A DNA stretch of 64,000 nucleotides from Oceanidesulfovibrio marinus. GTDB lineage: Bacteria; Desulfobacterota; Desulfovibrionia; Desulfovibrionales; Desulfovibrionaceae. The stretch is from contig NZ_CP039543.1 in the NCBI RefSeq assembly GCF_013085545.1, positions 4,123,322 through 4,187,321 of the forward strand, in the 5' to 3' direction. Numbering within the stretch: position 1 is the first letter of the stretch; each line of letters opens with the position of its first letter. The position numbers and the translations under genes are program-made. Below are positions 14,730 to 31,081 of the stretch, piece by piece. The notes beneath the pieces are model-generated. The model was not told where the DNA came from and ran no database searches. It was given only the letters and a program-made list of their open reading frames with translations.

Positions 14730-15812
14730 TCAGGGCTGGCTGGCGTTCTGCCCGGGCGACGTTTCGGAATCAGGCTTGCCCCCTGAAGCATTTGCGGAAA
14801 CATTTCCGGAAGCATCCGCGGAAGAGTCGGCGGGAGCGCCAACCGGGGCATCGCCCACCACGGCGTCGATGTCCGGTATCTCCAGTGACTCGTCCAGCTC
14901 CTTGGCCGCGGCGAAGTCGCGCACGGCCTGGGCCGTGTTGCCCAGCCTGGACCAGGCAAAGCCGCGGCGCATGTACGCCTCGGCCAGGGTGGCGTTGATG
15001 GCCAGGGCCTTGGTGTAGTCGGCCACGGCGGCGCGGGCGTCGCCCTGTTCCATGGCGGTGTCGGCGCGCCGGGTGTAGGCCATGGCCATGTCCGGGGAAA
15101 GCTCCACGGCTTTGGAGAAGTCCGCGGCCGCGTTCTGGTCGGCGCCGATTTCGCGCCAGGCAAGGCCCCGGTAGTAGTATGTCCAGGCAAGGTTCTCGGG
15201 GTCCAGCTCGCCGGAGTCGATGGCGCGGGACATGAACTTGATGGCGTACTCCGGCCCGGCCGCGCGGATGGACTGCAGCAGCGGTGTGATGACGTAACGC
15301 TGGTCGATGCGGTGCGCCGCCGCGATGTCGGCCATGGCCGACTCGGCGTCTCCGGCCAGAGAGTACGCCAGCCCGCGCATGAAAAGCGCCCGGCCGTTGT
15401 TGGGATTGAGCTCCAGGGCCGAGGTGTAGTCGGCGATGGCCAGGTCATACTTGCCGAGCTCCTTGTACGCGGCGCCGCGCTTGACGAATGCTTCGAGGAA
15501 CCGCGGGTTGCGCTCGATGGCCGTGGTCAGATCCTCCAAGGCCTTGTCGTACTCCTCCAGATAGAACCAGGCGTTGCCGCGGTCGTAGTAGGCGATGGTG
15601 AGGTTCGTCTCCTCCAGATCGCCGGACTCGATGGCCCTGGTGAGCAGCTCCACGCCGCGTTCGTAATCGCCGTCCCGGACAGCGGCGAGGCCGTCGCGGG
15701 CGTCCTCGTACGGCGAGGCCAGCAGGGGCGGCGCGGCCACTGTCAGGAACAATGCGCAGAGCAGCACCACGCGGGCAGACATGCGCCAGGGAATGGATAA
15801 AGCGGTCATCAT
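14730..15812 (-). CDS. Exported TPR-repeat protein
   Basis: About 360 residues if read from the ATG pair at 15812. A signal peptide (core ARVVLLCALFLTVAAPPLLA, cut near ASP) leads into about seven TPR units, recognisable from repeated A-x-x-x-R-G...Y-x-x-A-x-x-D-x-x-x-A...P patterns such as YDKALEDLTTAIERNP and YDLAIADYTSALELNP. The last 45 residues are a Ser/Ala/Gly-rich tail. It is probably a periplasmic protein-interaction scaffold. The start is uncertain, as neither 15812, 15845 nor 15782 has a clear ribosome site. It lies 272 nt upstream of the HDOD operon and is probably separately transcribed. Confidence 0.75.
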   Translation of the reverse strand: MMTALSIPWRMSARVVLLCALFLTVAAPPLLASPYEDARDGLAAVRDGDYERGVELLTRAIESGDLEETNLTIAYYDRGNAWFYLEEYDKALEDLTTAIERNPRFLEAFVKRGAAYKELGKYDLAIADYTSALELNPNNGRALFMRGLAYSLAGDAESAMADIAAAHRIDQRYVITPLLQSIRAAGPEYAIKFMSRAIDSGELDPENLAWTYYYRGLAWREIGADQNAAADFSKAVELSPDMAMAYTRRADTAMEQGDARAAVADYTKALAINATLAEAYMRRGFAWSRLGNTAQAVRDFAAAKELDESLEIPDIDAVVGDAPVGAPADSSADASGNVSANASGGKPDSETSPGQNASQP

Positions 15813-16475
15813 ACAACCATAATACTGGAGGGGCTGTGGAATCATGCCTTGATGATAGCAGCACATGGGCCAGCTTTCCACCGCTTCGGGGATGCCCCGT
15901 CAGGGAAGGTTCGGGTTTTCGTCAGGGGGGGGCGCACCCCTGAGAAGAGTAGTGCGCGTGCTGGAGAAATATACCTGGCAGGGCGCGAGCAGGAGTTTGG
16001 AGCAACAGCGGTTGTGATGGCGCAGAAAAACTGGAGTACGGGCAAATTCGAGGGGGCACAATAGAGCGGTTGTGAGGGCGGGTATGCCGTATGGGCCGGG
16101 GATTGTCCCGGGCATTGCTGTGGGATGGGTGTCCATGGATTATTGTATGCGCCAAAGTGCTTGTATTCGGTGGAAAGAAAATGGTGCAGCAGGCATCGTG
16201 GCTTCAGGCCGCATGCATATTGGCCCGGATGCTAACGGAACAATACAATGTATTGCAGTAGGTAGTGTCTGTTACGATGATAGATGGTCGGACATACATG
16301 CGCATGTATGAGAACCGTTTCAGTCTAGATAAAATTGATGTTGAATTCGTTGGCGTCCATGCAAAATATGTTGTACGCCTGCCGGGAATGAAGCGTTGTG
16401 GTTTGGGTGAAGGTATAATTCCCACGAAAAAGGTTTGAAATAGAAGAGAGACACTGTAAAGAAGTGTCTGAGAGA

Positions 16476-16538
16476 TGCCTGCCGCACGCAGAAACCTCCT
16501 TGCGTGGTAGTAATTATTCCCTAGGTGGCAGGTAGGAT
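16476..16538 (+). repeat. Structured element, copy A (shared with the ycaO leader)
   Basis: TGCCTGCC (16476-16483) can pair with GGCAGGTA (16527-16534; 8 bp with one G-U). The enclosed CACGCA/TGCGTG forms an inner hairpin. The 15-mer ggtggcaggtaggat (16524-16538) is identical to 23303-23317 in the ycaO leader, where TGCCTGCC also precedes it. A shorter version (caggtaggat) is at 6216-6225. Confidence 0.5.
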
Positions 16539-16558
16539 TAAAATTGGCTTGATTCATG

Positions 16559-16582
16559 ACTACGCCTTACGTAAGGAGTAGT
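16559..16582. promoter_or_regulatory. 24-bp palindrome, candidate operator of the tmc operon
   Basis: ACTAC-G-CCTTACGTAAGG-A-GTAGT: a perfect 12-bp core palindrome (16565-16576) flanked by matching 5-bp arms, with a single non-complementary pair between. It abuts TTGACA (16583-16588) and lies 88 nt before the tmcD start, an operator-like position. The regulator is unknown, and the site does not look like the Rex or HcpR consensus. Confidence 0.5.
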
Positions 16583-16669
16583 TTGACAAAAAAAGGTATA
16601 TTGCTTGGCTGTGTTGGGCTGGGGGTTTTTCAACGTCTTATCAACGATCTCCTCGACAAGGAGGAAACC

Positions 16670-17941
16670 ATGAAGGACGCATCCCTCTGGGACTGGAACC
16701 CCGGAGAGAAGGAAATCGTTGCGTGCGATGCATGCTCGGGCGATTGCGAGTGGCTCGAAGAGCCCATCGCAAGCCCTGATGGCGAGAAGGTCGCCCGGGT
16801 TGCGAAAGTTCGCGACGATGAAGAGGCTATTTTCACCCTCGCCGTTAATGGGGAGCTGTGGGAATCTACTTTTGAGAAGTGCTGGTATCCGCGATTCACT
16901 CCTGACGGCAGGCTGACCGCGCTGTGTTCGGAGATGGCCGAGTGGACGCTGGTCGTGGACGGCGAGCCCTGGGAAGAAAAATACGGATTCATCTGGGATA
17001 CGCGCTTTGCCGCAGACGGCGACGCCATCTCGGTATCCGTTCAGCAGGACATGGAGTACGGCTACTCCATCAACGGAGAAGCCTGGGGCGACTTCTTCGA
17101 AAACACCAACCACCCGGTGCTCTCCCCGGACGGCACCAAGGTCGCTTCCGTTGTGCAGACGCGCAACATCCCGCAGGCGGACATCTTCACGTTCAAGGAA
17201 GGGTGCTTCAGCGTGGCCGTGAACGGCCAGCCCTGGGACACGACCTTCGTGAACTGCTGGGACACGGCGTTCGACGCTACGGGCGAACACGTGGCCGTCA
17301 CCGTGCGCACCTCGCTCTACGACTACACCATCGCCGTGGACGGCAAGGCCTGGTCCTCGCGCTATCAGTGCATGTGGGAGCCGCGCTTCAATCCCAAGGA
17401 CGGCTCCGTGGTCGCCGGCGCGCGCCAGGGCGGCAAGTGGGGCATGCTCAAGGACGACGCCTGGATCTGGAAACCCACCATGTTCCAGTGCTGGAAGCCC
17501 GCCTTCTCCGCGGACGGCGCCAACCTCTGGGCCGTTGTCTGCCCCGATTTCGGCAGATGGACTGCGGCTGTGAACGGAGATGTCTGGGGCGAGAAGTTCA
17601 AACAGGTCGTCAGCGACATGTCGGTGAGCCCGGACGGCAAGCGCGCCGCGATCATCGGCAAGACCGACGACCAGTGGGGCATCATCGTGGACGACACGCG
17701 CTGGGTCGGCTGGTTCGAGATGGCCTATCCGGCTGTCTTCAGCCCGGACTCCAAGCACGTGGGCTACGCCGTGGAGCGCAAGGGCGGCCAGATGACCATC
17801 ATCCTGGACGGCCACGCCTACCACAAGGACTTCGACAAGGTCTGGAGCCCGGTGTTCAGCCCCGATTCCCAAAAAGTCATGATCCGCTGCCTGGATGGCG
17901 GCGTGTACAAGCGGATTGTGGTCCCGATCTCTGACTTCTAA
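16670..17941 (+). CDS. tmcD: TmcD, tryptophan-rich subunit of the Tmc redox complex
   Basis: 423 residues from MKDASLWDWNPGEKEIV. The ATG at 16670 has an excellent AAGGAGG. The chain is built of repeated units with the pattern V-N-G-x-x-W...W-x-x-x-F-S-P-D-G (for example VNGQPWDTTFVNCWDTAFDA), giving a Trp-rich, beta-propeller-like protein without a signal peptide. In Desulfovibrio, TmcD is the cytoplasmic Trp-rich subunit of the TmcABCD complex. It opens the operon here and precedes tmcC by 14 nt. Its exact role in the complex is not established. Confidence 0.85.
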   Translation: MKDASLWDWNPGEKEIVACDACSGDCEWLEEPIASPDGEKVARVAKVRDDEEAIFTLAVNGELWESTFEKCWYPRFTPDGRLTALCSEMAEWTLVVDGEPWEEKYGFIWDTRFAADGDAISVSVQQDMEYGYSINGEAWGDFFENTNHPVLSPDGTKVASVVQTRNIPQADIFTFKEGCFSVAVNGQPWDTTFVNCWDTAFDATGEHVAVTVRTSLYDYTIAVDGKAWSSRYQCMWEPRFNPKDGSVVAGARQGGKWGMLKDDAWIWKPTMFQCWKPAFSADGANLWAVVCPDFGRWTAAVNGDVWGEKFKQVVSDMSVSPDGKRAAIIGKTDDQWGIIVDDTRWVGWFEMAYPAVFSPDSKHVGYAVERKGGQMTIILDGHAYHKDFDKVWSPVFSPDSQKVMIRCLDGGVYKRIVVPISDF

Positions 17942-17955
17942 CCGTGGAGGGAGCC

Positions 17956-18618
17956 ATGCACGATATCTATGCTTTCCTGGTAGGCCCCCTCATGTGGGCC
18001 GTCATGATTGTCTTCATCGGTGGCTTGGTGTGGCGCTTTGTGGCCATGACCCGGCTGGCGAGGAAGAAAGACCCGTACGTAATGCATTACCTGAAGGCCA
18101 AGTGGACCCTGCGCTCGTGGGGCGCCTGGCTCGTCCCGTTCCTGCCCCGCAGCATGCGCCTGCATCCGTGGGTCACGGTGTTCGGGTACATCTTCCACAT
18201 CGGGCTCATCCTCACGCCCATCTTCCTGCTCGCGCACGTGATGCTCTGGCAGGAGGGCGCCCTGGGAATCTCGATATGGACCTTGCCGGAGTGGGTGTCG
18301 GACCTTCTGACTATCGGCGTGCTCGCTGGTTGCGTGTTCTTCGCCCTGCGCCGGATGATGGTGAAGGAAGTCAACTACGTCACGGACTGGACGGACTACG
18401 CCCTGCTCGTGGTGGTGGCGCTGCCTTTCCTCACCGGCATTCTGGCCCACTATCAGGTATTTGACTACAAATTCTTGATAATCTTCCACATACTTGCCGG
18501 TCAGGCCGCCCTGGTCATCGTGCCTTTCAGCAGGTTCGCGCACATGATCTTCGGCCCGATGGTGCGCGCCTACCTGGGCTCTGAGTTCGGCGGCGTACGC
18601 CACGCCAAGGACTGGTAA
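17956..18618 (+). CDS. tmcC: TmcC, membrane cytochrome b subunit
   Basis: 220 residues with five or so membrane helices and conserved-looking histidines (LHPWVTVFGYIFHIG, LLAHVMLW, LIIFHILAGQ) suited to bind b haems, as in the NarI/DsrM-type membrane subunit of this complex. It would carry electrons across the cytoplasmic membrane between TmcA outside and TmcB inside. The ATG at 17956 follows GGAGGGA; the GTG at 17944 is less likely. It lies 14 nt after tmcD and 17 nt before tmcB. Confidence 0.9.
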   Translation: MHDIYAFLVGPLMWAVMIVFIGGLVWRFVAMTRLARKKDPYVMHYLKAKWTLRSWGAWLVPFLPRSMRLHPWVTVFGYIFHIGLILTPIFLLAHVMLWQEGALGISIWTLPEWVSDLLTIGVLAGCVFFALRRMMVKEVNYVTDWTDYALLVVVALPFLTGILAHYQVFDYKFLIIFHILAGQAALVIVPFSRFAHMIFGPMVRAYLGSEFGGVRHAKDW

Positions 18619-18635
18619 CGTCTCAGGAGATAGAC

Positions 18636-19991
18636 ATGTCTGATACCGCAACAGCGACGAACGATAAGGAAAAGGACCTCCTCAAGCCGGTCTATGACGA
18701 TCCGGGCATTATGAAAGGCCTGGAAAAGCTGGACGAGGCGACCATCGAGCGCGTGATCAACGAAACGCTCGAGGCGGAGGGCGGCGCCCGGCTCAAGATC
18801 CTCGTGGACACCTGTGTGCACTGCGGATTGTGCTCCGACGCCTGCCATTTCTTCCTGTCCCACGACCGCGATCCCATCTACTCGCCCGTGGGCAAGGTAA
18901 AACAAACCATCTGGGAGATGCTGGACAAGAAGGGCAAGGTTTCCAAGGAGTTCCTCATGCGCGCCGTGCAGGTGGCGCATACGGAGTGCAACCTCTGCCG
19001 CCGCTGCGTCCAGTACTGCCCCTTCGGCATCGACACCGCGCACCTCATTGCCCTGACGCGGCGCATCTGCCACAAGCTGGGCATCACGCCCCAGTATCTG
19101 CAGGATACGGCGCACAGCCACTCCGCCACCTACAACCAGATGTGGGTCAAGGAAGATGAGTGGGTGGACAGCCTGTTCTGGCAGGAGGACGAGGCCCGCG
19201 ACGAGCTGCCGACCCTGCGCATCCCCGTGGAGAAAGAGGGCGCGGACATCTACTACTCGGTCATCGCGCCCGAGCCCAAGTTCCGCACGCAGCTCATCTA
19301 CCAGGCCGCGGCGATCATGCACGAGGCCGGCGCGGACTGGACCATGTCCTCCCTGGCCGGTTGGGACAACTCCGACATGTGCATGTACTCCGGCGACTCG
19401 GAGATGATGGGCCGGCTCAAGCGCAAGCACTTCGAGGACGCCATGCGCCTCAAGGTCAAGCGCATCGTCATGGGCGAGTGCGGCCACGCCTTCCGCTCCA
19501 TCTACGACACGGGCAACCGCTGGGACGGCTGGGAAGGCCTGCCGGTCCAGGTGCAGCACTCCGTGGACTTCTTCGAGGAGCTTCTGCGGCTCGGCAAGAT
19601 CAAGGTCGCCAGCAAGATCCACGAGAAGGTCACCATCCACGACCCCTGCAACATCGTCCGCGGACGCGGCCTGCAGGAAAAGCTGCGCACCGTGGTGCAC
19701 GCCTTCTGCGACAACGTGGTGGAGATGTACCCCAACAAGGAGCACAACTACTGCTGCTCCGCCGGCGGTGGTGTGATTAACTGCGGTCCGCCGCACAAGA
19801 ACACCCGCGTGGTGGGCAACCGGGTCAAGGCCGAGCAGATGCAGGCCACCGGCGCCTCCATCGTGGTGGCTCCGTGCCACAACTGCCACGGCGGTCTGGA
19901 AGACATCATCCACAAGTACAATCTCGGGATGGAGCTCAAGTTCCTGGGCGATATCATCTACGAGCACATGGAAAAGCCTGACGCCATTTAA
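18636..19991 (+). CDS. tmcB: TmcB, CCG-domain [4Fe-4S] protein
   Basis: 451 residues, cytoplasmic and related to HdrD/DsrK. Two ferredoxin-type clusters are bound by CVHCGLCSDAC (Cys60, 63, 66, 70) and CNLCRRCVQYC (Cys118, 121, 124, 128). CCG-type motifs follow (DPCNIVRGRG, NYCCSAGGGVINCG, APCHNCHGG), which in the family bind a catalytic iron-sulfur centre for disulfide/thiol chemistry. The substrate is not established. The ATG at 18636 follows AGGAGA. It is the third gene of the operon. Confidence 0.92.
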   Translation: MSDTATATNDKEKDLLKPVYDDPGIMKGLEKLDEATIERVINETLEAEGGARLKILVDTCVHCGLCSDACHFFLSHDRDPIYSPVGKVKQTIWEMLDKKGKVSKEFLMRAVQVAHTECNLCRRCVQYCPFGIDTAHLIALTRRICHKLGITPQYLQDTAHSHSATYNQMWVKEDEWVDSLFWQEDEARDELPTLRIPVEKEGADIYYSVIAPEPKFRTQLIYQAAAIMHEAGADWTMSSLAGWDNSDMCMYSGDSEMMGRLKRKHFEDAMRLKVKRIVMGECGHAFRSIYDTGNRWDGWEGLPVQVQHSVDFFEELLRLGKIKVASKIHEKVTIHDPCNIVRGRGLQEKLRTVVHAFCDNVVEMYPNKEHNYCCSAGGGVINCGPPHKNTRVVGNRVKAEQMQATGASIVVAPCHNCHGGLEDIIHKYNLGMELKFLGDIIYEHMEKPDAI

Positions 19992-20015
19992 CCGCCGAGA
20001 ATAACGAGGAAAGCC

Positions 20016-20423
20016 ATGCAAACTATGAAGAATTGCCTCCGCATGTACAGGAGGCTCGCTCTGGTGGCCGTGTCGCTCGTTTTCGTGGCGGTCGCGCCCG
20101 GCCTGGTCCACTCTCAGGGAGATATCGAATTCCTGGCCGATCCGGCGTTCGAGAATCCCCAGCGGCCGCCGGCAGTCTTCCACCACGACGAGCACAACGC
20201 CAACGCCGCCCTCGAGGACCAGTGCTGGTACTGTCACCATATGGACGGTTCCAACCCCAGTCCGGACGAGGATTCCATCGGCATTCCGTGTTCCGACTGC
20301 CACGCCGTGGACGCCGATGACGGCTCCACCTCTCTCCTGATGGCCTACCACATCCAGTGCCAGCGCTGTCACACCAAGGAGAAGAAAGGCCCCATCACCT
20401 GCGGCGAGTGCCACGTGCGCTAG
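20016..20423 (+). CDS. tmcA: TmcA, periplasmic tetrahaem cytochrome c3 (type II)
   Basis: 135 residues. A signal peptide (RRLALVAVSLVFVAVAPGLVHS) is cut near residue 33, giving a periplasmic protein. Four CxxCH haem sites are present: CWYCH (70-74), CSDCH (92-96), CQRCH (115-119) and CGECH (129-133). Extra histidines (HHDEH, MAYHIQC) can serve as distal ligands. The acidic, tetrahaem, operon-linked character matches type II c3 (TmcA), which takes electrons from hydrogenase-reduced type I c3. It ends the operon 25 nt before an intrinsic terminator. Confidence 0.92.
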   Translation: MQTMKNCLRMYRRLALVAVSLVFVAVAPGLVHSQGDIEFLADPAFENPQRPPAVFHHDEHNANAALEDQCWYCHHMDGSNPSPDEDSIGIPCSDCHAVDADDGSTSLLMAYHIQCQRCHTKEKKGPITCGECHVR

Positions 20424-20447
20424 ACCGTAGCTGAACTCACGCAAAAC

Positions 20448-20490
20448 AAGGCCCGGCAGCCCCCGTATCGAGGTGGGTGCCGGGCCTTTT
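20448..20490 (+). terminator. Intrinsic terminator of tmcDCBA
   Basis: AAGGCCCGGCA (20448-20458) pairs perfectly with TGCCGGGCCTT (20478-20488), an 11-bp stem with a 19-nt loop running into TTTT. It begins 25 nt after the tmcA stop. Confidence 0.85.
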
Positions 20491-20522
20491 CTTGGACACG
20501 GAAACAGACGAAGACCAAGACC

Positions 20523-21350
20523 ATGTCCATGCACGCAGACAGATTGCGCTTCGCCGTCTTTGCCACGGTCCTGCTCGTCCTGGTGGTGGCCGGCTGCATC
20601 GGTTTCATGCTCTTGGAGGGCCTGAATGCGGTGGACGCGCTCTATTTCACCATTGTTACCATGTCCACCGTGGGCTACGGCGACATCCACCCGATCTCTC
20701 AGGCAGGCAAACTCCTCGCTGTGGTCATGATCCTGGCCGGCGGCGGCGCGTTCATTGGCGTGGGCGCCTCGGCCGCCGAGATGATCCTCACCCGCCACGA
20801 GCGCAAAAGCCGCATGGACAAGCTGAACATGGTCATCGGCGTGTTCTTCAGCGAGATAGGCAGCGAGCTCCTGGCCCGGCTGGAGGCGATGGACCCCGAC
20901 CGCGAGGGCCTGGAGCGGGACATTGCCGTGGACGGAAGCTGGAGCGTTCGCGACTTCCGCAAGGCCAGAGGCAGGGTGGAGGGGCTGGGCAGAGGCCTCA
21001 AGCCGAGCTGCGACGATCTGGCCGTGCTCAACGATTTACTCACCGCCAAGCGCGACTTCATGCTGCAGCTTCTGGAGAACCCCACCCTTCTGGAGCACGA
21101 GTCCTTTACCGAGATGCTCCGCGCCGTGTTCCACCTGGCCGAGGAGCTGACCCTGCGCGGCGATTTCACCTGCCTGCCGGAGTCCGACTGCGCCCACCTG
21201 GCCGGCGACGTACGCCGCGTCTACCCGCTGCTGGCGGCGCGCTGGCTCGACTACATGCTCCACCTCAAGACCAGCTACCCCTACCTCTTCTCCCTGGCCC
21301 TGCGCACCAGTCCCTTTGCACGCGACCGCAGCGTTGTGGTCCTGGACTGA
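20523..21350 (+). CDS. Two-helix potassium channel protein
   Basis: 275 residues. Helix 1 (about 10-32), a pore loop with the K+ selectivity filter TVGYGD (49-54) and helix 2 (about 62-84) make an ion_trans_2-type channel. The cytoplasmic part (85-275) is helical and charged and shows no RCK/TrkA_N nucleotide-binding signature, so its gating domain is unusual. It would assemble as a tetramer in the inner membrane. It follows the tmc terminator and stands alone on its strand before fbaB. Confidence 0.85.
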   Translation: MSMHADRLRFAVFATVLLVLVVAGCIGFMLLEGLNAVDALYFTIVTMSTVGYGDIHPISQAGKLLAVVMILAGGGAFIGVGASAAEMILTRHERKSRMDKLNMVIGVFFSEIGSELLARLEAMDPDREGLERDIAVDGSWSVRDFRKARGRVEGLGRGLKPSCDDLAVLNDLLTAKRDFMLQLLENPTLLEHESFTEMLRAVFHLAEELTLRGDFTCLPESDCAHLAGDVRRVYPLLAARWLDYMLHLKTSYPYLFSLALRTSPFARDRSVVVLD

Positions 21351-21643
21351 CCTTGGTGGATTGATCTCGGTGACTGATCTCGGCGACTGATCCTCCGGTC
21401 GCCTGAATGCACCATTCTGCCAGAGCAGGGGCGGCACCCCCGGACAGCGCGCGGTTCCCCGTCGCAAGAATGCCACATTGCCCGCCAGCAAGCGGAGGAT
21501 GCGCCGCTCCGACGCGGTTTGCGTGCGCATTTTCAGGATTTCATGGAGCAGGGGCTTACACTCCTTCATATCCTGTGCTATACGCAAGGCAGTATTCCAT
21601 TTTCTACGAATTCTCCGCACCAACCCCCATTCGGAGGGCGACC

Positions 21644-22696
21644 ATGACCGATTACGCCAAGCTCCTCGGCGAAGAGACCGCGCAGCAACTGTTGGGACAT
21701 TCCTGCAAAACCATTGACAAATCCAAGCTCCACCTGCCCGGACCGGACTATGTGGACCAGAACTTCCTGCAGACCGACCGGCCCATCCCGGTCATCCGCA
21801 ACCTGCAGACCATGTTCGACCACGGACGCCTGGGCGGCACCGGTTTTCTCTCCATCCTGCCGGTGGACCAGGGCATCGAGCACACGGCCGGCGCATCCTT
21901 CGCGCCCAATCCCATCTACTTCGACCCCGAGTCCATCGTGCAGCTCGCCATCGAGGCCGGCTGCAACGCCGTGGCCTCCACCCTGGGCGTGCTCGCCTCC
22001 GTGGCGCGCAAGTACGCGCACAAGATCCCGTTCATGCTCAAGATCAACCACAACGAGCTGATGACCTACCCCAACACGTACGACCAGATCATGTTCGCCA
22101 CCGTGGAGCAGGCCTACGAGATGGGCGCGGTCGCTGTGGGCGCCACCATCTACTTCGGCCACGAGACCTCCGACCGTCAGATCATCGAGGTCTCCCGCGC
22201 CTTTGAGGCGGCCCACGCCATGGGCATGGCCACCGTGCTCTGGGCCTACACCCGCAACGACGGCTTCAAGAAGGACGGCGTGGACTACCACACCGCGGCC
22301 GACCTCACCGGCCAGGCCAACCACCTGGCCGTGACCATCAAGGCCGACATTGTGAAGCAGAAGCAGGCCACCAACAACGGCGGCTTCAAGGCCGTGGGCT
22401 TCGCCAAGACGGACGAGAAGGTCTACACCGAGCTGACCAGCGACAACCCCATCGACCTGACGCGCTACCAGGTGGCCAACTGCTACATGGGGCGCATCGG
22501 GCTCATCAACTCCGGCGGCGGCTCCGGCAAGAACGACCACGCCGACGCCGTGCGCACGGCCATCATCAACAAACGCGCCGGCGGCATGGGCCTGATCATG
22601 GGCCGCAAAGCCTTCCAGCGTCCCATGGACGAAGGCGTCAAGCTCATCCAGTCCGTGCAGGACGTGTACCTGGATAAGGCCGTAACCGTGGCGTAG
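21644..22696 (+). CDS. fbaB: Class I fructose-bisphosphate aldolase (FbaB/DhnA type)
   Basis: 350 residues, the same length as E. coli FbaB, and similar to it throughout: [68 protein letters not shown] and [11 protein letters not shown]. It splits fructose 1,6-bisphosphate through a Schiff-base lysine and serves glycolysis/gluconeogenesis. The ATG at 21644 follows CGGAGGG; the longer frame to 21407 is not coding-like. It is the last GC-rich gene before the AT-rich cassette. Confidence 0.95.
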
Positions 22697-22798
22697 CGGC
22701 TTAGTCTTAAGTTGAGCGAAGTATTTAATTGTATGGCTTTGGTTTGTTGGCTGTGTCGGTTTGGTTTGACAGGCAAATAAAACCAAAAGGAGGATGTC

Positions 22799-23251
22799 AT
22801 GCCTGGGAATAGGACCATGCAGTTGAATGAATTTTTGGAGGGGCAAAATCGTGGTGAGCAACAGCTCTTTGGAGTTTACCAGTCGCAAGCAATGAAAAGT
22901 GAGGGAAAAGTAAGGTTATTCTTATGGATGGAAGGGTATAATTGCTTTCATCGCGTATTCATTGATGTCCCAACAAAGGCGATAGAGTCCGTAAAAACAG
23001 TGGGACCAAAAGTCAGATATGAAGGCGAAGTTCTAGAGTTAGTTGAGATAAATTTTGCAGAGGGAGTTGATGGATTGTTCACCATACATGATCTCTTTAG
23101 GCACTTATCTGATAACTGCATTATCATCCCTGGATACACGGAGGCCGATAATAAATCCAGGAAGGCTGATCTTGTCGATAAGGCTGTTCCTAGGCAGCAA
23201 GGCATGGAACGAAAAGGTGGGCTTGAGCCTTTTTCACGCCCAGTGTTATGA
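22799..23251 (+). CDS. Unknown 150-residue protein of the AT-rich cassette
   Basis: 150 residues, no signal peptide or membrane helix; no family recognised. The ATG at 22799 has a near-perfect AGGAGG five bases upstream, so translation is likely. The chain looks like an alpha/beta protein (LFGVYQSQAMKSEGKVRLFLWM, FIDVPTKAIESVKTVG) with a polar, probably disordered tail. Codon use is AT-rich, unlike fbaB before it and like ycaO after it. It lies 86 nt upstream of ycaO on the same strand, which suggests a shared job, perhaps as partner or substrate of the YcaO enzyme; this is inference. Confidence 0.6.
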   Translation: MPGNRTMQLNEFLEGQNRGEQQLFGVYQSQAMKSEGKVRLFLWMEGYNCFHRVFIDVPTKAIESVKTVGPKVRYEGEVLELVEINFAEGVDGLFTIHDLFRHLSDNCIIIPGYTEADNKSRKADLVDKAVPRQQGMERKGGLEPFSRPVL

Positions 23252-23372
23252 CGCATGCTGTAAACTGCCTGCCTGCTGCTGCTATAATTTGTGGGAAAAC
23301 GCGGTGGCAGGTAGGATATATTATGTCAGGATGAACGGTGTGGCTAATGTTCAATATAAAAAGAAAGTATAA
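23217..23372 (+). CDS. Possible Cys-rich 51-residue peptide overlapping two genes
   Basis: In the third frame, a GTG at 23217 opens a 51-codon frame that overlaps the end of the preceding gene and the start of ycaO. It contains CYDACCKLPACCCYNLW, six cysteines within 13 residues, directly upstream of a YcaO gene. Cys-rich cores next to YcaO enzymes are a hallmark of azoline-type RiPP precursors. Against it: no strong ribosome site, a TGC-triplet run that could be chance, and overlap with the structured element at 23266-23317. No leader-peptide family is recognised. Confidence 0.2.
   Translation: MGLSLFHAQCYDACCKLPACCCYNLWENAVAGRIYYVRMNGVANVQYKKKV
23266..23317 (+). repeat. Structured element, copy B (ycaO leader)
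   Basis: TGCCTGCC (23266-23273) followed by ggtggcaggtaggat (23303-23317), the same pair of elements as at 16476-16538. The arms can pair as an 8-bp stem enclosing a shorter loop than copy A. CTGTAAA precedes both copies. It ends 20 nt before the ycaO start. Confidence 0.5.
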
Positions 23373-25260
23373 AGAGAAAAGACCATTAGAAACAATCAAT
23401 CTTATAAGAGGATTATTGTCAAGCTATGGTGTGTTTACGCGAGAAGACTATTGGGGGAATCCATATGAGAACATATGTTCCGTATCAATAGTATCTGGTG
23501 ATGAATTTGGTCAATTTAGAACGAACGGGAAATCTCAAAGCCAAGAGTATTGTCTGGCGAGCGCCTATGGTGAATTCATGGAAAGAATTCAAAATAACAT
23601 GCATGTCTTGAATGTATCGCACATTAACTTGATGGATTTAAAAAATAAATCTGGGGTGTATGCGTATCCGGATGAAGAACTGTTGGGATTAGAAGATATT
23701 CTAAATCTGCCTGAAAATGTTTTGCAGGACCTGTTCGGAAGAAGCGACTATGTGGTAGAGGCTGAAGAATATGTTAACATTGCAAAATCAAGAACAGGTA
23801 AAGGCTGCGTCTGCGTCCCTTATTATTGTGTAAACTCACAAGAAGTTTTATATCTACCTTATAATCTTCTCCTGTCGTCAGTAGGATCAAACGGAATGGC
23901 TGCGGGCAACACTCTCGAAGAAGCACTGTGTCAAGGGTTATTCGAGGTCATAGAAAGGCTTGCAGCATCACTAATTTTTTATAACCAGCTTACTCCGCCA
24001 GATATACCATCCAGCTACTTACAACAATTTCCGAGGGAGTTTGGCATTATTAAGCAGCTTGAGTCTGATTCTTTTCAGGTTGTAATGAAAGACTTTTCGT
24101 GTGGGATCGGGCTGCCTGCGCTAGGGGCTTTACTCGTTGAGCCGTCAGAAAATACATATTTTTTAAATGTTGGGTGTGACTCCTCATTTCAAGTCGCTTT
24201 GAGTAGGTGCCTGACGGAACTGTATCAGGGTGTTTCCAATCCCAGAGAAATGCGGTTGCGAATGATGCGCTTGCCGTCTGAAAACCCTTGGTATTTCGAG
24301 AAGGAGGGAGTTCATTCAGGGGCAAAGAGAGAAAGTGTCTTTTGTCAATATACTGTGAATGGTTGTGGTAAATTCCCAAAGGAGCTGTTTGGGCATGCCC
24401 CCACATATTCTTTTAAGGATTCCGTGTTCGCTACCAGTACTACCTATGCCTCCGAAGTGAAGTATTGGATACAATTCTTGATGGAGTTGGGTTACACTGT
24501 TCTCGTTCGAAATGTATCTTTTTTGGGTTTCCCATCGATCCATGTTTATATCCCTCAGGTGTCTAGTGTTGGCTTGAGAGCTACTAAAAAAAATTATGAT
24601 TTCCAGCTACTAAGGGCAATAGACCTTTGTCTTGAAGCTTGCTGCTCTCGGAAAGAGTTGAATAAAGAAGAATATGCAGAGATTGCAAACAATCTCGCAA
24701 CCATGTCGGTAGATATGACAATATTCGATTTGTTTTCATTGCAAATGAAAGGCGATCCTGATGTCCCAGTAAAGTATGTTGGTATGCTCGAGTTGTTGTG
24801 TTGGGTGTTTGCTCGTAATGTTAGTGTAGCTAGAGAGAGGACGCATATAAGAATAAATGAAACTGAATCAAGTGATTGCCACGCTCAGTTGTTAATAATG
24901 TTAGATGCTCTTGATAAAGACAGTTTTTATGAGAATGTCGGTGGAAATTTAGGGTATTATGGCAAGGTTTTGTCGAAGACGCTGGAAGGAAATGATGTTG
25001 TTCTTGAAGAAGTAATGGGGGCCGCCATGCTTCCGACTTGTCCGCTCTGTGGCAAATGCCCGGTCAACGATCATTGTTTGACGCAGGGAAAATTAAAATT
25101 GGCGGCAACGCTGATGCCTAAATACAGTTTGGATCACCGTTCATTATTGGTTGATCAAATCACTCATTCCTCAACACAGGCCATGCCGGTTTCGACAGCG
25201 CGTGCCGCACGCCGAACAGGCCCAGCGCGAGGGTGGCCAGCACGCCGCCGCAGAGGATGA
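23338..25260 (+). CDS. ycaO: YcaO-family ATP-dependent cyclodehydratase-like protein
   Basis: 640 codons; the first about 606 resemble E. coli YcaO (586 aa). ATP-site motifs of the family are all present: RTNGK...LASAYGEFMERI (61-84), SNGMAAGNTLEEALCQGLFEVIER (184-207), LSRCLTELYQG (288-298) and SIHVYIPQVS (400-409). YcaO enzymes activate peptide amides with ATP; the E. coli protein assists RimO in beta-methylthiolation of ribosomal protein S12, and others make azolines or thioamides. The C-terminal part differs, carrying CPLCGKCPVNDHC (568-580), a possible metal site. GTG 23338 has AGGA upstream; ATG 23347 is an alternative. The last about 30 codons read through antisense permease sequence. 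Confidence 0.85.
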   Translation: MWLMFNIKRKYKEKRPLETINLIRGLLSSYGVFTREDYWGNPYENICSVSIVSGDEFGQFRTNGKSQSQEYCLASAYGEFMERIQNNMHVLNVSHINLMDLKNKSGVYAYPDEELLGLEDILNLPENVLQDLFGRSDYVVEAEEYVNIAKSRTGKGCVCVPYYCVNSQEVLYLPYNLLLSSVGSNGMAAGNTLEEALCQGLFEVIERLAASLIFYNQLTPPDIPSSYLQQFPREFGIIKQLESDSFQVVMKDFSCGIGLPALGALLVEPSENTYFLNVGCDSSFQVALSRCLTELYQGVSNPREMRLRMMRLPSENPWYFEKEGVHSGAKRESVFCQYTVNGCGKFPKELFGHAPTYSFKDSVFATSTTYASEVKYWIQFLMELGYTVLVRNVSFLGFPSIHVYIPQVSSVGLRATKKNYDFQLLRAIDLCLEACCSRKELNKEEYAEIANNLATMSVDMTIFDLFSLQMKGDPDVPVKYVGMLELLCWVFARNVSVARERTHIRINETESSDCHAQLLIMLDALDKDSFYENVGGNLGYYGKVLSKTLEGNDVVLEEVMGAAMLPTCPLCGKCPVNDHCLTQGKLKLAATLMPKYSLDHRSLLVDQITHSSTQAMPVSTARAARRTGPARGWPARRRRG

Positions 25261-27745
25261 GCGCCAGCGGCCCCATCAGCGGCGCATACTGCGTCATCAG
25301 GAACGCGTTCACAAACGCCCAGGCCAGGCCGCAGCCGGCCAGCGCGGCCACGGCCGCGGTCACCGCGCCCAGCAGCAGGAACTCCAGGGCCAGTGTGACG
25401 AGGATATCCCGCCGCGTGGCCCCCAGCACCTTGAACACAACCGCATCATAGTACCGCTGCTCCAGGTTGGCGGCCAGGGTCTGCGCCAGCACCAGCAGCC
25501 CGGCCAGCAGCGTTACCGCCGCGGTCAGCCGGATCGCCATCCCGATATTCCGGACAATGGCGTCCACGTCCTGCAGCACGTCGCGCACATAGATAGCCAC
25601 CACGCTGGGCAGCTGCGTCGTCACTGTCTCGAAAAGCGCGTCATCGGCCTGCTTCGAGTCTGTATACGCCGTGGCGATCCAGCTGTGCGGCGCGTTGTCC
25701 AGCACGCCGGGCGAGAACACGAACGTGTGGTTGAGCGACAGCGTGGACCACTCGATCTCTCGCGTGCAGGCAATGGTCGGCGTGAACGCCTGCCCCAGGA
25801 TGGACACGGTGATGGTGTCGCCCGGCCCCACGCCGAAGCCCTCTGCCAGGCCGGAGTCCAGGCAGATGAGCGGTTTGCCGTGGTAATCCGCCGGCCACCA
25901 CTGGCCGGAGACGATTTTCGTTCCCTTGGGCGGCGTGGCCGCGTACGTCATGCCGCGATCCCCGCGCAAGGCCCAGCGCACGTCGTCCGCCACCTGGGCC
26001 TGCTCCACAGGCACGCCGTTGATGGCCGTGATCCGCCCGCGAATGGAAGGCTGCGCCTCCATCCGGGTAATGCCCCTGGTGACGGCCACGATGTCGCGGA
26101 AGGTGTCGATCTGCGCGTTCTGAATGTCGAGGAAGAAGTACGACGGCGCGTCCTTGGGCAGCTGCTCCGAAATGGACCGCTGCAGCGTGCTGTCCACCTG
26201 GCTTACGGTGACGAGGATGGTCAGCCCAAGCCCCAGCGAGAAGAGCACGGCCGGCGTGGCCGCGCCCGGCCGGTGGATGTTGGCGATGGCGTGGCGCAGC
26301 CGGGGTTTTCGGGGCCTGGGCAGCCGCGCCGCCACGCGCATGACCACCACGGCGGCGATGCGGAAGAAGGCCATGGCCGCGAGGACGCCGCCGGCAAAGC
26401 CCAGGGCAAGGCGGGCGTTGTGCGCGTAAAGCAGGGTGAGGACGATGAGCCCGGCCCCGCAGCAAGCCGAGGCCATGGCTGCCTGCCAGGACGGCCGTCG
26501 CGGACCGGCTTCCCCATACCCGCGGAAGAGCCGCGCCGGAGAGATGGTGCCGGCCGCCGAGAGCGGCCACAGCGCAAAGGCCATGGCCGTGAGCAAGCCA
26601 TACATCAGCGCCAGGGCCAGCGGCTTGAAAGCCGGGGTGATGGCCACGGGCACGGTGAGCAGTTGGGCCAACAGCGGCGCGGCCAAGAAGGCCGAGCCCA
26701 CGCCGAGGGCCACGCCGAGAACGCTGCCCAGCAGGGCCAGGGCCATGGTCTGCGCCAGGTACGTCCAGACCACGAGCCGCCGCGTTGCGCCCAAACATTT
26801 GAGCGAGGCGATGGCCTCGTACTTTTTCTCCAGGGACGCGCGCACGCCGTTGGCCACGCCGATGCCGCCCACGAGCAGCGCCGCCAGACCGACCAGCGTG
26901 AGGTACACGGCAAGGTTGTCAAAAAATCTGGACAGTCCGGGGCTGGAGCTTTTGTAGTCGCGTACCTGCCAGCCTGGCTCGCGCACGGCCTGCAGCCGCT
27001 CCTTGGCCTGCTCGATGGAGACGCCGGGTTCGAGCCCCAGGGCGTAGACGTATCTGACCACGCTGCCGGGCCGGAGCAGGCCCGTGCTCTTGATCGCGTC
27101 CAGGGAGAGCAGTACCCGCGGGCCCAACCCGAAGAAGTTGGAGGGCCGGTCCGGTTCACGCACGACCTCCGCGCGAATCCGCAGAACGCTTTGCCCCACG
27201 CGGAGGTCGTCGCCCACGGCAAGGCCCAACCGCATCAGCAGGCTCTTCTCCACGGCCGCACCGTACACGCCGTCCTTTTCGGCCAGGACGTCGGCCAGCG
27301 GCAGGGCTGGCTCCAGCGTGACCGCGCCGAACAGTGGGTAGTTGGGCCCCACGGCCTTGAGCTCCACCAGGGAGGAGCGCCGCTTCTCCGGGGCGTTCTC
27401 TGCCACGCCGTTGGTCGCGTTCCCTTGCGGTGCCTGCGTTTCAGGCGGCCGGGCCATGGAGCGCATGCTGACCATACGCATCACGCGGCCCATGCTCTCC
27501 ATCGCCGTTATCGCCTCGTCCGAGGCCGGCACGTGGGTCTGGCGGATCTGGATGTCCCCGCCCATGAGCGCCTTGGCGTCGCGGGAAAGGGCCGTGTCCA
27601 CCGAGGATGAGACCGTGCCCACGGCCGCCACTGCGCCCACGCCCAGGGCCAGGCATGCCAGGAAGATGCCGAAGCCGCGTACGCCGCCGCGCAGCTCCCG
27701 CCGGGCAAACCGCAAGGCCAGCTTCAGCTCGGAGAAGAACGCCAT
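25160..27745 (-). CDS. ybbP: ABC exporter permease, FtsX-like (YbbP type)
   Basis: 861 residues. Large two-half permease with an N-terminal helix (about 22-45), an extracytoplasmic MacB-type domain, FtsX helix blocks (about 275-400 and the C-terminal 120 residues) and central helices around 430-480. It resembles E. coli YbbP (804 aa), a predicted exporter subunit of unknown substrate. The ATPase partner gene ends immediately upstream. Its stop codon at 25160-25162 sits exactly at the boundary with the AT-rich ycaO cassette, and the final codons (LRNE) may derive from that junction. Confidence 0.85.
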   Translation of the reverse strand: MAFFSELKLALRFARRELRGGVRGFGIFLACLALGVGAVAAVGTVSSSVDTALSRDAKALMGGDIQIRQTHVPASDEAITAMESMGRVMRMVSMRSMARPPETQAPQGNATNGVAENAPEKRRSSLVELKAVGPNYPLFGAVTLEPALPLADVLAEKDGVYGAAVEKSLLMRLGLAVGDDLRVGQSVLRIRAEVVREPDRPSNFFGLGPRVLLSLDAIKSTGLLRPGSVVRYVYALGLEPGVSIEQAKERLQAVREPGWQVRDYKSSSPGLSRFFDNLAVYLTLVGLAALLVGGIGVANGVRASLEKKYEAIASLKCLGATRRLVVWTYLAQTMALALLGSVLGVALGVGSAFLAAPLLAQLLTVPVAITPAFKPLALALMYGLLTAMAFALWPLSAAGTISPARLFRGYGEAGPRRPSWQAAMASACCGAGLIVLTLLYAHNARLALGFAGGVLAAMAFFRIAAVVVMRVAARLPRPRKPRLRHAIANIHRPGAATPAVLFSLGLGLTILVTVSQVDSTLQRSISEQLPKDAPSYFFLDIQNAQIDTFRDIVAVTRGITRMEAQPSIRGRITAINGVPVEQAQVADDVRWALRGDRGMTYAATPPKGTKIVSGQWWPADYHGKPLICLDSGLAEGFGVGPGDTITVSILGQAFTPTIACTREIEWSTLSLNHTFVFSPGVLDNAPHSWIATAYTDSKQADDALFETVTTQLPSVVAIYVRDVLQDVDAIVRNIGMAIRLTAAVTLLAGLLVLAQTLAANLEQRYYDAVVFKVLGATRRDILVTLALEFLLLGAVTAAVAALAGCGLAWAFVNAFLMTQYAPLMGPLALILCGGVLATLALGLFGVRHALSKPAWPVLRNE

Positions 27746-28475
<730 letters not shown>

Positions 28476-28489
<14 letters not shown>

Positions 28490-29240
28490 CAGAATCTCCT
28501 CGTCAGCATCACAATCTTCGACGCTGTGGCGTCGTACGGTCCAGCGGCGAGTTTACCTTGTTTTTTGCCTCGTGCAAGCGGCGTTTCTGTGCTGCGCGCC
28601 GTCCGTGTTTTCCCAAACCACTCTATCTACCGACCAACAAAGCGAGACCAGCGCCATGGGCGACCCTGTGACCATACTCGCCTTCGGTGACAGCCTGACC
28701 GCCGGATACGGGCTGAACCCGGGCGAGTCCGTGCCCGATATCCTCCAGACCATGTTGCATGACAACGGCTACAACGTGACCATCGTCAATGCCGGGTACT
28801 CCGGCGACACCACTACCGGCGGCCTGGCGCGTCTGCCCTGGACCCTGGACCGGAGCCAGCCGGACGCCGCCATCCTGGAGCTCGGCGCCAACGACGGCCT
28901 TCAGGGCCAGGACCCGACCCAGATGGAAGCCAACCTCAACGCCATGCTCGACCTCTTTCAGCAGCACTCCATCCCCGTGCTCTTTACCGGCATGCAGGCC
29001 ATGCCCAACCTCGGCGAGGCGTACGCCCAGGAGTTCGCCGCCGTGTTCCCCCGGATCGCCGAGCAGCGCGACCTCCTCTTCTACCCATTCTTCCTCGAAG
29101 GCGTGGGCGGCATCCCCGCCCTCAACCAGGGCGACGGCATTCACCCCAACGCCGAAGGCGCCCGCCTCATCGCGAAAAATCTCTACCCGTACGTGGTGCA
29201 GCTCATCGAAAAGGCGCAGCGGCTCCAGGAAGCCGGGTAG
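28476..29240 (+). CDS. tesA: Arylesterase/lysophospholipase, TesA-like SGNH hydrolase
   Basis: 254 residues with a signal peptide (VYLVFCLVQAAFLCCAPSVFS) cut near residue 47, so periplasmic. SGNH blocks: block I FGDSLTAGYG (Ser), block II NAGYSGDTT (Gly), block III LGANDGL (Asn) and block V DGIHPNAEGA (Asp, His). TesA hydrolyses fatty acyl esters and thioesters and lysophospholipids. The ATG at 28476 is preceded by GGAG. An internal start at 28656 would remove the signal peptide. It is divergent from ybbA and overlaps its start. Confidence 0.9.
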
Positions 29241-29447
29241 GAACAGGAACGTATAGCCCGGATGGGGCGCCGCCCCCTCCGGACCACCCCCGGCAGGGAG
29301 CACGGCCCCTGCGCCCCGGAATGATTTTTCAGATCATGTTCCATAGGGAGCATAGTTCCCTGTACCCAGAAAAGGGGTCCGGGAATCAGTGTTCCCCGAG
29401 CAGGGGCGTGGGGGACAGCGTCCCCCGCTTCCTACCGTGGGAGTCCG
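29241..29447. other. Convergent intergenic region rich in G/C hairpins
   Basis: No gene. It carries several inverted repeats, including GGGGGAC-AGC-GTCCCCC near 29411-29428 and a GGGA/TCCC hairpin near 29347-29361, between convergent tesA and the C_GCAxxG gene. The style resembles 50880-50990, another convergent gap. They may act as bidirectional terminators or be REP-like repeats. Confidence 0.4.
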
Positions 29448-29936
29448 TTATGCGCCGCTGGCGTCGAGCAGCTCCAGCGCCTTGGTCACGGCAAAGGCGA
29501 TGACGTGCTCGCAGCGAGTGGTCCAGAGATTCTGGCGGCGGAACTCGGCCAAGCCTTCGGGGTCGGCGATGTTGATGCCGGCGACGTCTATGCAGTCGCG
29601 GCCGCCGAACTCGGTGCGGAACTCCTCCACGAGCTCTTCCACTGCGTTATAGCAAGGTTCCAGCGATTCTTCGGGCGCGGTCCGGCCCAGGCCGAAGCCC
29701 AGGGCGAGAATGGCACCGGACAGGGCGCCGCACTGGCCGCATGTACGGGAGACGCCGCTGCACAGGCCGGTGGCAAGGGACGTGGGCCGGGGGATGTCCC
29801 AGCCTTTGGCGCGTACAAGGGAGGCAAAGACGCTTTCCGCGCAGAGGAACTTGGAGCGCGCCATGGCGCGCGCGTGTTCGGCCGGGTCTTCGGGCGTGGG
29901 CTGGGTGTCAGTGTGTTCCGGGGGCGAGGCGTCCAT
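29448..29936 (-). CDS. C_GCAxxG_C_C family protein (putative redox protein)
   Basis: 162 residues. The family signature is CGQCGALSGAILALGFGLGR, preceded by a cysteine in GLCSGVSRTCG and followed by lone cysteines (EPCYNAVEE, RDCIDVAG, TTRCEHV). This cysteine pattern suggests metal or Fe-S binding; the biochemical role of the family is not established. The ATG at 29936 has AGGAG six bases upstream; the ATG at 29942 would leave no spacer. It follows the PAS kinase gene by 26 nt and is probably co-transcribed. Confidence 0.85.
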   Translation of the reverse strand: MDASPPEHTDTQPTPEDPAEHARAMARSKFLCAESVFASLVRAKGWDIPRPTSLATGLCSGVSRTCGQCGALSGAILALGFGLGRTAPEESLEPCYNAVEELVEEFRTEFGGRDCIDVAGINIADPEGLAEFRRQNLWTTRCEHVIAFAVTKALELLDASGA

Positions 29937-29962
29937 TGGCATCTCCTGATTTCGTTATGGGA

Positions 29963-31081
29963 TCAGGCGATGTCGTCCTGCAGTTCCGTGTCTTCGTCAA
30001 GGGTTATGAGCACGCTGCCTGGCTCGCGGCGGTGCACGGTGATGTCCAGGCCGAGCTCGGCGGCCATGCGCCGCACCCGCGCCAGGCCCATGCCCACCTT
30101 GTCCGGCATGGTGGTGAAGAAGGGGTCGAAGACAAAGGGCAGGATATCCGCCGCAATGCCGGGGCCGGTGTCGGCCACCTCGTAGCGCAGGCCGTCCTCC
30201 ATGCCGGCGCCCAGGTACACCTCACCGGGCGGCGCGTCCTCGCTGGGGGGCATGGAGGCGATGGCCTCCAGGGAGTTGCAGACCAGCTCGGTCAGCAGCG
30301 CCACGGTCAGGTCGGCGTCCACGGTAACGGCCGTTTCCTCCACATCCAGGAGCAGGGGGATGGCGCGCCACGACTCCGGCCCGCGGGCATAGGCCTCGTC
30401 CGCCACGCGCGCGGCAATTTCCGGCAGCAGGATGTGCCGCGGCTCGGCAGTGCGGATGGCGTTGTAGGATGTCACGGCCTGGACAATGGCTTCCAGCCGG
30501 ACGCTCTCATCCAGGATGCCTTCGAGATACTCGTGCAGCGCCTGGTCGGACTTGCGCAGGGCGATGCGCGCAAAGCCGGCGATGGCCATGGCCGGGTTGC
30601 GCAGCTGGTGGGCCACGGCGTCGGAGAGGGTGCGCAGACTTCTGGTGCGCGCCAGCTCCATGGCGTGGCGTTCCTCCAGGAACCGCCGCTGCCTGGCGTG
30701 CATGGCGTAGATGTGCGTGACGTCGGTCATGGAGAGCAGGATGCCGAAGATCTTGCCGTACTCCACGAGCAGGGAGGTGGTGAGGGAGAGGCGCAGGCGG
30801 TCGCCGTCCAGGGTGATGTAGACGGCTTCGAGCGCTTCCCGCCGGCCTTTCTGGTTGCGCGCGTCCGCCATGTACCGGCGGAAGGTGTCGGGCTCTTCGA
30901 TGCCGGGCAGGAACTCGTCCCAGAGCAGGCCTTTGAAGTCTTCCTCGTCGATGATGCCGAGCATCTCGCGGGCGTGGCGGTTGCAGGCGTAGGCGTAGCC
31001 GTCGGTATTGAAGATGGCCACGCTCTCCGGATAGCCGTCCAGGAGGTTCTGGAAGTAGGCGGACTGGATGAATGGCAGCAC
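29963..31081 (-). CDS. PAS-domain sensor histidine kinase
   Basis: 372 residues, cytoplasmic. A PAS domain (about 10-130; ESVAIFNTDGYAYACNRHAREML) leads to a dimerisation/phosphoacceptor helix with SDAVAHQLRNPAMAI and an HATPase domain (ELVCNSLEAI, DTGPGI, GMGLARVRRM). The GTG at 31081 has GAGG six bases upstream and begins just after the previous gene's stop; an ATG at 31141 would instead overlap that gene by 44 nt. No receiver partner lies next to it. The operon order is Cys-protein, kinase, C_GCAxxG protein. Confidence 0.85.
   Translation of the reverse strand: MLPFIQSAYFQNLLDGYPESVAIFNTDGYAYACNRHAREMLGIIDEEDFKGLLWDEFLPGIEEPDTFRRYMADARNQKGRREALEAVYITLDGDRLRLSLTTSLLVEYGKIFGILLSMTDVTHIYAMHARQRRFLEERHAMELARTRSLRTLSDAVAHQLRNPAMAIAGFARIALRKSDQALHEYLEGILDESVRLEAIVQAVTSYNAIRTAEPRHILLPEIAARVADEAYARGPESWRAIPLLLDVEETAVTVDADLTVALLTELVCNSLEAIASMPPSEDAPPGEVYLGAGMEDGLRYEVADTGPGIAADILPFVFDPFFTTMPDKVGMGLARVRRMAAELGLDITVHRREPGSVLITLDEDTELQDDIA

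Follow-up and report, generated by a model that had tools for sequence, protein, structure and literature searches.

Within the 64-kb stretch of DNA analysed here ('the window'), an AT-rich island lies between an fbaB-like gene and a convergently oriented permease gene. This island appears to have been acquired horizontally, and it probably represents a 'substrate' along with its 'modifier', that is, a unit in which a YcaO enzyme modifies the region of an Arg-Pro-Val-Leu (RPVL) tail found at the end of a 150-residue protein. That protein most likely is the substrate of the YcaO, as marked by its C-terminal tail, and the case for this role, which is built upon sequence comparison, is a strong one. 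Particularly, the comparison is with two loci carrying YcaOs of the same clade, one from an Alistipes metagenome-assembled genome (MAG; locus L049) and the other from an Acidobacteria MAG (locus L050).

The Island and Its Borders

The island extends over positions 22697–25165, between the stop codons of its two flanking genes, both of which are outside of the unit. These are the fbaB-like gene on the left (21407–22696, + strand, with its stop at 22696) and the permease gene on the right (25160–27745, − strand, with its stop at 25160). Across approximately 22,700 to 25,165 the GC content drops from about 60–70% to 39–47%. Upon sliding one-kb frames along the 64 kb (step 250), just 8 of 253 have a GC content under 50%, each of them overlapping the island. 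Third-position GC is 0.42 for the gene of the 150-residue protein and 0.40 for ycaO, versus 0.86 for fbaB and 0.89 for the permease gene. A CAI-like index gives 0.24 and 0.23 for the same two genes versus 0.61–0.76 for five neighbouring genes, with these latter values flattered since the index was trained on those same five. The original prediction of an AT-rich, two-gene island with foreign codon use thus is borne out. A second, shallower AT-rich dip is seen at 16000–16750 (GC 0.46–0.49 in 500-base frames), i.e., before and into an ORF at 16556–17941.

Gene content consists of two + strand genes, the 150-residue ORF (22799–23251) and the YcaO frame (23338–25260). Each, as had been proposed, possesses its own ribosome site: AGGAGG at 22788–22793 (+ strand), 5 bases upstream of the 150-residue ORF, and AGGA at 23328, before ycaO. 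Neither promoter-like sites (1 versus 5.4 expected) nor terminators (0 versus 2.4 expected) are in excess in the island, and no tRNA is found within 15000–30000. The ycaO start may be the GTG at 23338, which the AGGA suits better, or instead the ATG at 23347, which resembles the MFN start of the L050 homologue.

The cassette had been given as 22697–25165. The right edge of the island stands, but the YcaO frame does not stop there, reaching instead to 25260 inside the permease gene, whose 3' end it overlaps by about 100 bases, i.e., by approximately its 31 last codons. The permease of G001, the sole further genome of this genus that our searches found, ends almost identically (...PAWPVLRND-stop versus ...PAWPVLRNE-stop in the window). 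The permease C-terminus therefore looks original, and the YcaO in turn seems to be without a stop of its own, with approximately 31 final codons seemingly borrowed from the permease region after loss of that stop.

This apparent loss of a stop also is a point in favour of viewing the island as a remnant of a larger RiPP cluster, one whose exporter and protease were left behind and whose ycaO end was cut at insertion, such that the unit may be inactive. The island contains no exporter, protease, or radical SAM gene. That counts against a substrate-plus-modifier unit generally and, with regard to exporter and protease, unlike the situation at L050, is consistent with a remnant particularly. Both frames nevertheless are intact across their full homologous length, the YcaO core is invariant, the four cysteines described below are all present, and a ribosome site as well as the tail have been retained. 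A remnant consequently is seen as unlikely.

Acquisition and Distribution

In G001, fbaB and the permease gene occur in the same order as in the window, with their proteins 77% and 82% identical, respectively, to those of the window. The gap between them is occupied there by an unrelated 263-residue ORF (L045, 3048–3839; GC 0.41) which possesses a HARE-HTH domain. The fbaB–permease gap thus looks like an exchange spot, with one sister genome displaying the exchange. It is foreign composition, together with the different gene occupying this site in G001, that identifies the island as horizontally acquired.

The original prediction of a transferred pair is supported also by distribution. The 150-residue protein is without a copy in 58 relatives. 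A profile of the YcaO clade, at 1e-40, matched among 288 genomes of the family (host included) only the host and G031, and the G031 enzymes fall within another clade of the YcaO tree, so that none of the 287 other family genomes holds a close copy of the window YcaO. Descent from the host's other YcaO (L002, the second match in the host genome) was considered and rejected, as L002 groups with the TPR-type YcaOs of relatives, a separate clade. Over the genomes searched, no relative was seen to carry the pair within sequence of normal composition, nor was the YcaO placed inside of vertically inherited Desulfovibrio sequences.

Elsewhere, the phylum of the Alistipes genome (395 genomes, 1e-50) provided matches in that genome itself (G690) and, distantly, in G896, a Bacteroidota genome whose locus (L142) has no RPVL-ending ORF. 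The family of the Alistipes genome (268 genomes, 1e-45) provided that genome alone, as too did the phylum of the Acidobacteria genome (396 genomes, 1e-45; G691, the Acidobacteria genome itself). Among plasmids there are YcaO relatives of less than 60% identity only. Viral contigs scanned with the L049 and L050 proteins returned nothing and, scanned with profile A3, returned only seven distant loci. At L049, GC is 0.29–0.32 for ycaO, an ABC ATPase gene, and a neighbour gene, and 0.45 for the peptide gene, with a left flank of 0.57 and a right end that is intermediate (0.37–0.42). Such sporadic spread, along with composition, fits with horizontal transfer.

Sporadic occurrence is also what might be expected of defence or conflict cargo, for which the gap would be a site of exchange and the modified protein would act as an effector or in the manner of an antitoxin. 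The HARE-HTH protein in the same gap of the sister genome adds to that idea. Neither island protein has a PADLOC or PHROGs match of note, however, and exchange is seen in just one other genome, making this a quite unlikely explanation.

The YcaO Enzyme

The enzyme carries a YcaO domain (PF02624, E 4.2e-47, Pfam). Nine residues, E76, E79, R80, E200, E203, R204, R287, E291, and Q294, are invariant in 25 homologue rows, and this Glu/Arg/Gln core we take to serve an ATP/Mg role. A model based on that 25-row alignment (pLDDT 82, pTM 0.84) aligns with E. coli YcaO from model residue 5 to residue 598 (Z 42.6, rmsd 3.6, 541 aligned). Methanogen and cyclodehydratase YcaOs align with the model only up to about residue 415–417. 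What had been described as an E. coli YcaO-like layout with a different C-terminus accordingly holds, in terms of both this full-length fold match and a four-cysteine C-terminus that E. coli-like rows lack.

The YcaO tree covers 58 of 99 rows and 400 columns, with the C-terminal part left out, and was built using a quick method. Among the 41 rows not included, none has the four-cysteine pattern. One set of relatives consists of 80 out of at least 578 matches listed, and L007 and L018 were set aside, the ORFs chosen for them having been wrong. The window YcaO together with those of L049 and L050 forms one clade (SH-aLRT 99). Fourteen E. coli-like rows are separated from the remainder, the window YcaO included, by a branch with support of 100. 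Nine TPR-type rows, including L002 of the host and L027 of G001, group with support of 98, as do five rows of G031, G339, and G044 with support of 100. The window YcaO, that is, belongs neither to the E. coli-type clade nor to the one that includes L002 of the host.

A RimO helper had been suggested as one possible role, and might be extended to a uL16-modifying, E. coli-type YcaO with the small gene as a chance neighbour. The overall fold is alike, and the E. coli-type model for S12-associated YcaOs (NF040716) indeed provides the best equivalog score. That score nevertheless is 192.9 bits, below a cut-off of 700, and the clade is a separate one. The pI of the 606-residue YcaO part, 5.17, is only modestly above the range of 4.35–4.92 seen for 14 E. 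coli-like rows, and hence provides a weak argument (5.74 with the borrowed, Arg-rich end included). An RPVL-ending neighbour, furthermore, is common to three loci. PMC13063428 reports that the E. coli enzyme itself thioamidates uL16, and calls its role in modifying S12 unclear. The helper claim thus is not supported, and an E. coli-type role of either sort is highly improbable.

The 150-Residue Protein and Its Tail

The window ORF ends in LEPFSRPVL, with the RPVL tail encoded at 23237–23248 (+ strand). At L049 the ORF just upstream of ycaO encodes 45 residues and ends in PKEFARPVL, and its counterpart at L050, which is cut by the contig end, ends in FGETGRPVL. From the stop of the tail-bearing ORF to ycaO there are 92 bases at L049, 150 at L050, and 86–95 in the window. 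The residue preceding RPVL thus is S, A, or G, and the sequences before the tail are not recognisably related among these three ORFs. All four RPVL codons vary synonymously across the loci, implying that it is the peptide rather than the DNA which has been kept. Given one tail, found beside YcaOs of one clade, on bodies without recognisable relation, and specified by synonymous codons, the 150-residue protein therefore is most likely the substrate.

Elsewhere such tails are rare. Among 47,022 stop-ended segments (of at least 15 residues, duplicates included), RPVL ends are seen with the window ORF (plus five copies), with L049 and L050, and with a single L069 ORF that is more than 5 kb from the L069 ycaO; repeating the count with later loci adds only L049 and L050 copies. 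Segments ending no more than 300 bases upstream of ycaO number ten at L049 and six at L050 (where only 226 bases are present). The chance of both upstream matches would be approximately 3e-8, given a background near 1 in 47,000 and a motif length that was picked after seeing it. Counting against a substrate is that the tail is present at three loci only, two of these being MAG contigs, with the L050 ORF cut.

The suggestion that the small protein serves as partner or substrate nonetheless gains from its RPVL-ending counterparts at L049 and L050, i.e., from co-occurrence of an RPVL-tailed ORF with the same YcaO clade in two distant bacterial phyla. The protein had been described also as lacking homologues, which is true of its body but not of its tail. 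No Pfam or NCBIfam family matches at E 1, including NHase_alpha-like or Nif11 leaders, nor does anything in PHROGs or PADLOC, and plasmids, phages, and viral contigs hold no relatives. A PDB search returned four matches (best E 0.44), and the single-sequence model is poor (pLDDT 51). A search of the host genome for TIGR03793 (NHLP precursor) found no match and carries little weight, with 0 of 14 controls matching either. As a different candidate precursor, a Cys-rich frame at 23055–23372 was rejected, having one PHROGs match at E 0.35 and no shared tail.

A hairpin separates the tail gene and ycaO at all three loci (z −2.83, −5.87, and −3.32). In the window it is of 15 bp (23268–23315, + strand), is without a subsequent T-run, and receives a negative terminator call. 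Such a hairpin would fit with the substrate being made in greater amounts than the enzyme. An ABC exporter adjoins ycaO at L050 and an ABC ATPase does so at L049.

The Four-Cysteine Motif

The C-terminal cysteine sequence noted originally, CPLCGKCPVNDHC (25039–25077, + strand), is present and may be a metal or Fe-S site. It is a family feature, with the four-cysteine pattern found in 23 of 99 YcaO rows (18 loci plus the window), whereas of 4600 tails generated from those 23 rows by shuffling, 2 have it. Of the 23, 18 are spaced as C-x2-C-x2-C-x5-C, and the other five, which are rows of G031, G044, and G339, as C-x5-C-x2-C-x5-C. None of the tree's E. coli-like or TPR rows has the pattern. As it is missing or incomplete as well in 12 of the 58 tree rows which are neither E. 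coli-like nor TPR-type, the motif probably has been gained or lost more than once. An endonuclease III Fe-S model (Pfam) touches the motif at E 0.07, i.e., below cut-off. That the site holds a metal or Fe-S cluster can be suggested with moderate confidence.

Leaving the window aside, 5 of 18 loci have leader peptides adjoining the four-cysteine YcaO, among the chosen neighbours that were checked: NHase_alpha-like (NHLP) peptides at L024, L025, and L046 and Nif11 ones at L051 and L055. The YcaO at L046 also has an M50 peptidase beside it, and that at L075 a PqqD-rSAM-SPASM protein. In G031, three four-cysteine YcaO genes are accompanied by a radical SAM protein and by several genes for NHLP precursors (L024, 7448–12600, and L025, 11600–15750), with a PAAR-like gene close by (L024, 12895). 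The NHLP peptides there (L024, 9302–10113; L025, 13508–13780) finish with short runs of hydrophobic residues (...SSVIG, ...FSATF), one of them terminating in Thr-Phe, like ItfA. G339 possesses a compact cluster of YcaO, NHLP peptide, and M50 peptidase (L046, 8629–12731) which, by ORF reading, has transposase-like ORFs on both sides. Clostridium four-cysteine YcaOs have long, same-strand Gly-Met-x repeat ORFs upstream (L052, 6213–6872; L053, 6285–6797), possibly multi-site substrates. Directly 5' of a Butyrivibrio YcaO are three small ORFs with Gly/Ala-rich C-termini (L058, 6399–6915).

A Possible Reaction

The YcaO would bind the 150-residue protein by its flexible tail at the C-terminus, [S/A/G]-Arg-Pro-Val-Leu-COOH, and there is good reason to propose that RPVL is what it would recognise. 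ATP then would be spent on activating a backbone amide in or beside the tail, with the amide oxygen exchanged for an external nucleophile. The C-terminal four-cysteine site would meanwhile hold its metal or Fe-S cluster. An azoline is unlikely as a common product because RPVL lacks Cys, Ser, and Thr, it is preceded by S, A, or G, and the enzyme shows no PxPxP, with P.P.P not found over the final 60 residues of the 606-residue YcaO part. An external nucleophile therefore is left, either ammonia, giving an amidine, or sulfide, giving a thioamide. A backbone amidine near the C-terminus would be the first choice, since a cysteine-bearing YcaO and a conserved C-terminus follow the same logic as ItfB, though that analogy suggests amidine chemistry just weakly.

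As second choice, the same substrate and tail might instead receive a backbone thioamide, installed by the YcaO using cellular sulfide. The full-length fold is common to the window and E. coli YcaOs, and the E. coli enzyme is reported (PMC13063428) to thioamidate uL16 without TfuA. The window YcaO nevertheless is outside of the E. coli-like clade, and the nearest described logic, as portrayed in PMC10352776 and PMC11002830, yields an amidine. A thioamide thus is somewhat unlikely. A YcaO-TfuA thioamide system, with its adjacent tfuA gene, is not seen within the island, TfuA being absent by Pfam from both island genes.

A broader proposal, which is tentative and to be doubted more than believed, is of a mobile tail-editing pair, with the YcaO reading only [S/A/G]RPVL, on otherwise unrelated proteins, and rewriting a backbone amide. 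If so, then the 150-residue protein, instead of a short peptide, would be the working product, and RPVL would serve as a tag that can be carried between proteins to direct modification of the backbone. Were the tail alone to suffice, this would supply a short tag for putting an amidine or thioamide into a protein backbone.

Comparison with Known Systems

For methanogen YcaOs the target site is inside McrA. Like the reading preferred here, i.e., of a substrate plus its modifier, McrA thioamidation has a whole protein as target, and the core fold is alike (PDB 6PE3, 6CI7; Z 26.6–27.9), with the match limited to approximately the first 415 residues of the window YcaO model. E. coli YcaO (NF040716, annotated as an S12 methylthiotransferase accessory factor; PDB 4Q84–4Q86) is similar in its ATP-binding core and in fold along its full length. 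The differences lie with the 14 E. coli-like rows, which are without the four cysteines, are somewhat more acidic, and form their own clade. The NHLP- and Nif11-associated YcaOs of G031, G339, and Bacillota loci share the C-terminal four-cysteine motif and an adjoining small peptide gene, but their precursors are leader-type and no RPVL-ending ORF lies beside them.

YcaOs generally activate a backbone amide using ATP, with a nucleophile then replacing the oxygen, as outlined in PMC13063428. DapY of daptides is another YcaO acting at a C-terminus, as stated in PMC12338566, and a study of NHLP-YcaO engagement (PMC12455567) involves an enzyme with an RRE domain binding a leader. The open-access literature searched yielded nothing linking a YcaO with RPVL, nor a YcaO with Desulfovibrio and a precursor peptide.

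The closest precedent is ItfB/ItfA of Bacteroides thetaiotaomicron, a backbone-amidine RiPP (Clark and Seyedsayamdost 2022, as relayed in PMC10352776 and PMC11002830). By description, which is how the enzymes are compared here, ItfB is a YcaO to which a domain of [Fe-S] type has been added, a domain that the four-cysteine motif of the window YcaO may parallel, and its precursor likewise has a conserved C-terminal motif. The ItfA tail as given there is Ile-Thr-Phe rather than Arg-Pro-Val-Leu, and the ItfB cluster includes a radical SAM enzyme and an ABC transporter/C39 peptidase, unlike the window island. Two ITF-ending ORFs (L068, L092) were rejected as ItfA-like tails, since both fall within the ycaO stretch, at loci that are E. 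coli-like.

ItfB may be the sole member of the four-cysteine YcaO group with a known reaction. The suggestion of a new peptide-modification system is upheld in terms of substrate and tail, but not in terms of precedent. That is, ItfB-like enzymes and NHLP/Nif11 precursors are known, and what is new is the RPVL tail, its 150-residue bearer, and the two-gene form. A YcaO substrate seldom can be named from sequence, and here three genomes allow one to be read off together with a tail of four residues that probably serves in recognition. A search rule may be suggested accordingly, namely to seek a conserved C-terminus beside the enzyme, in addition to a conserved leader.
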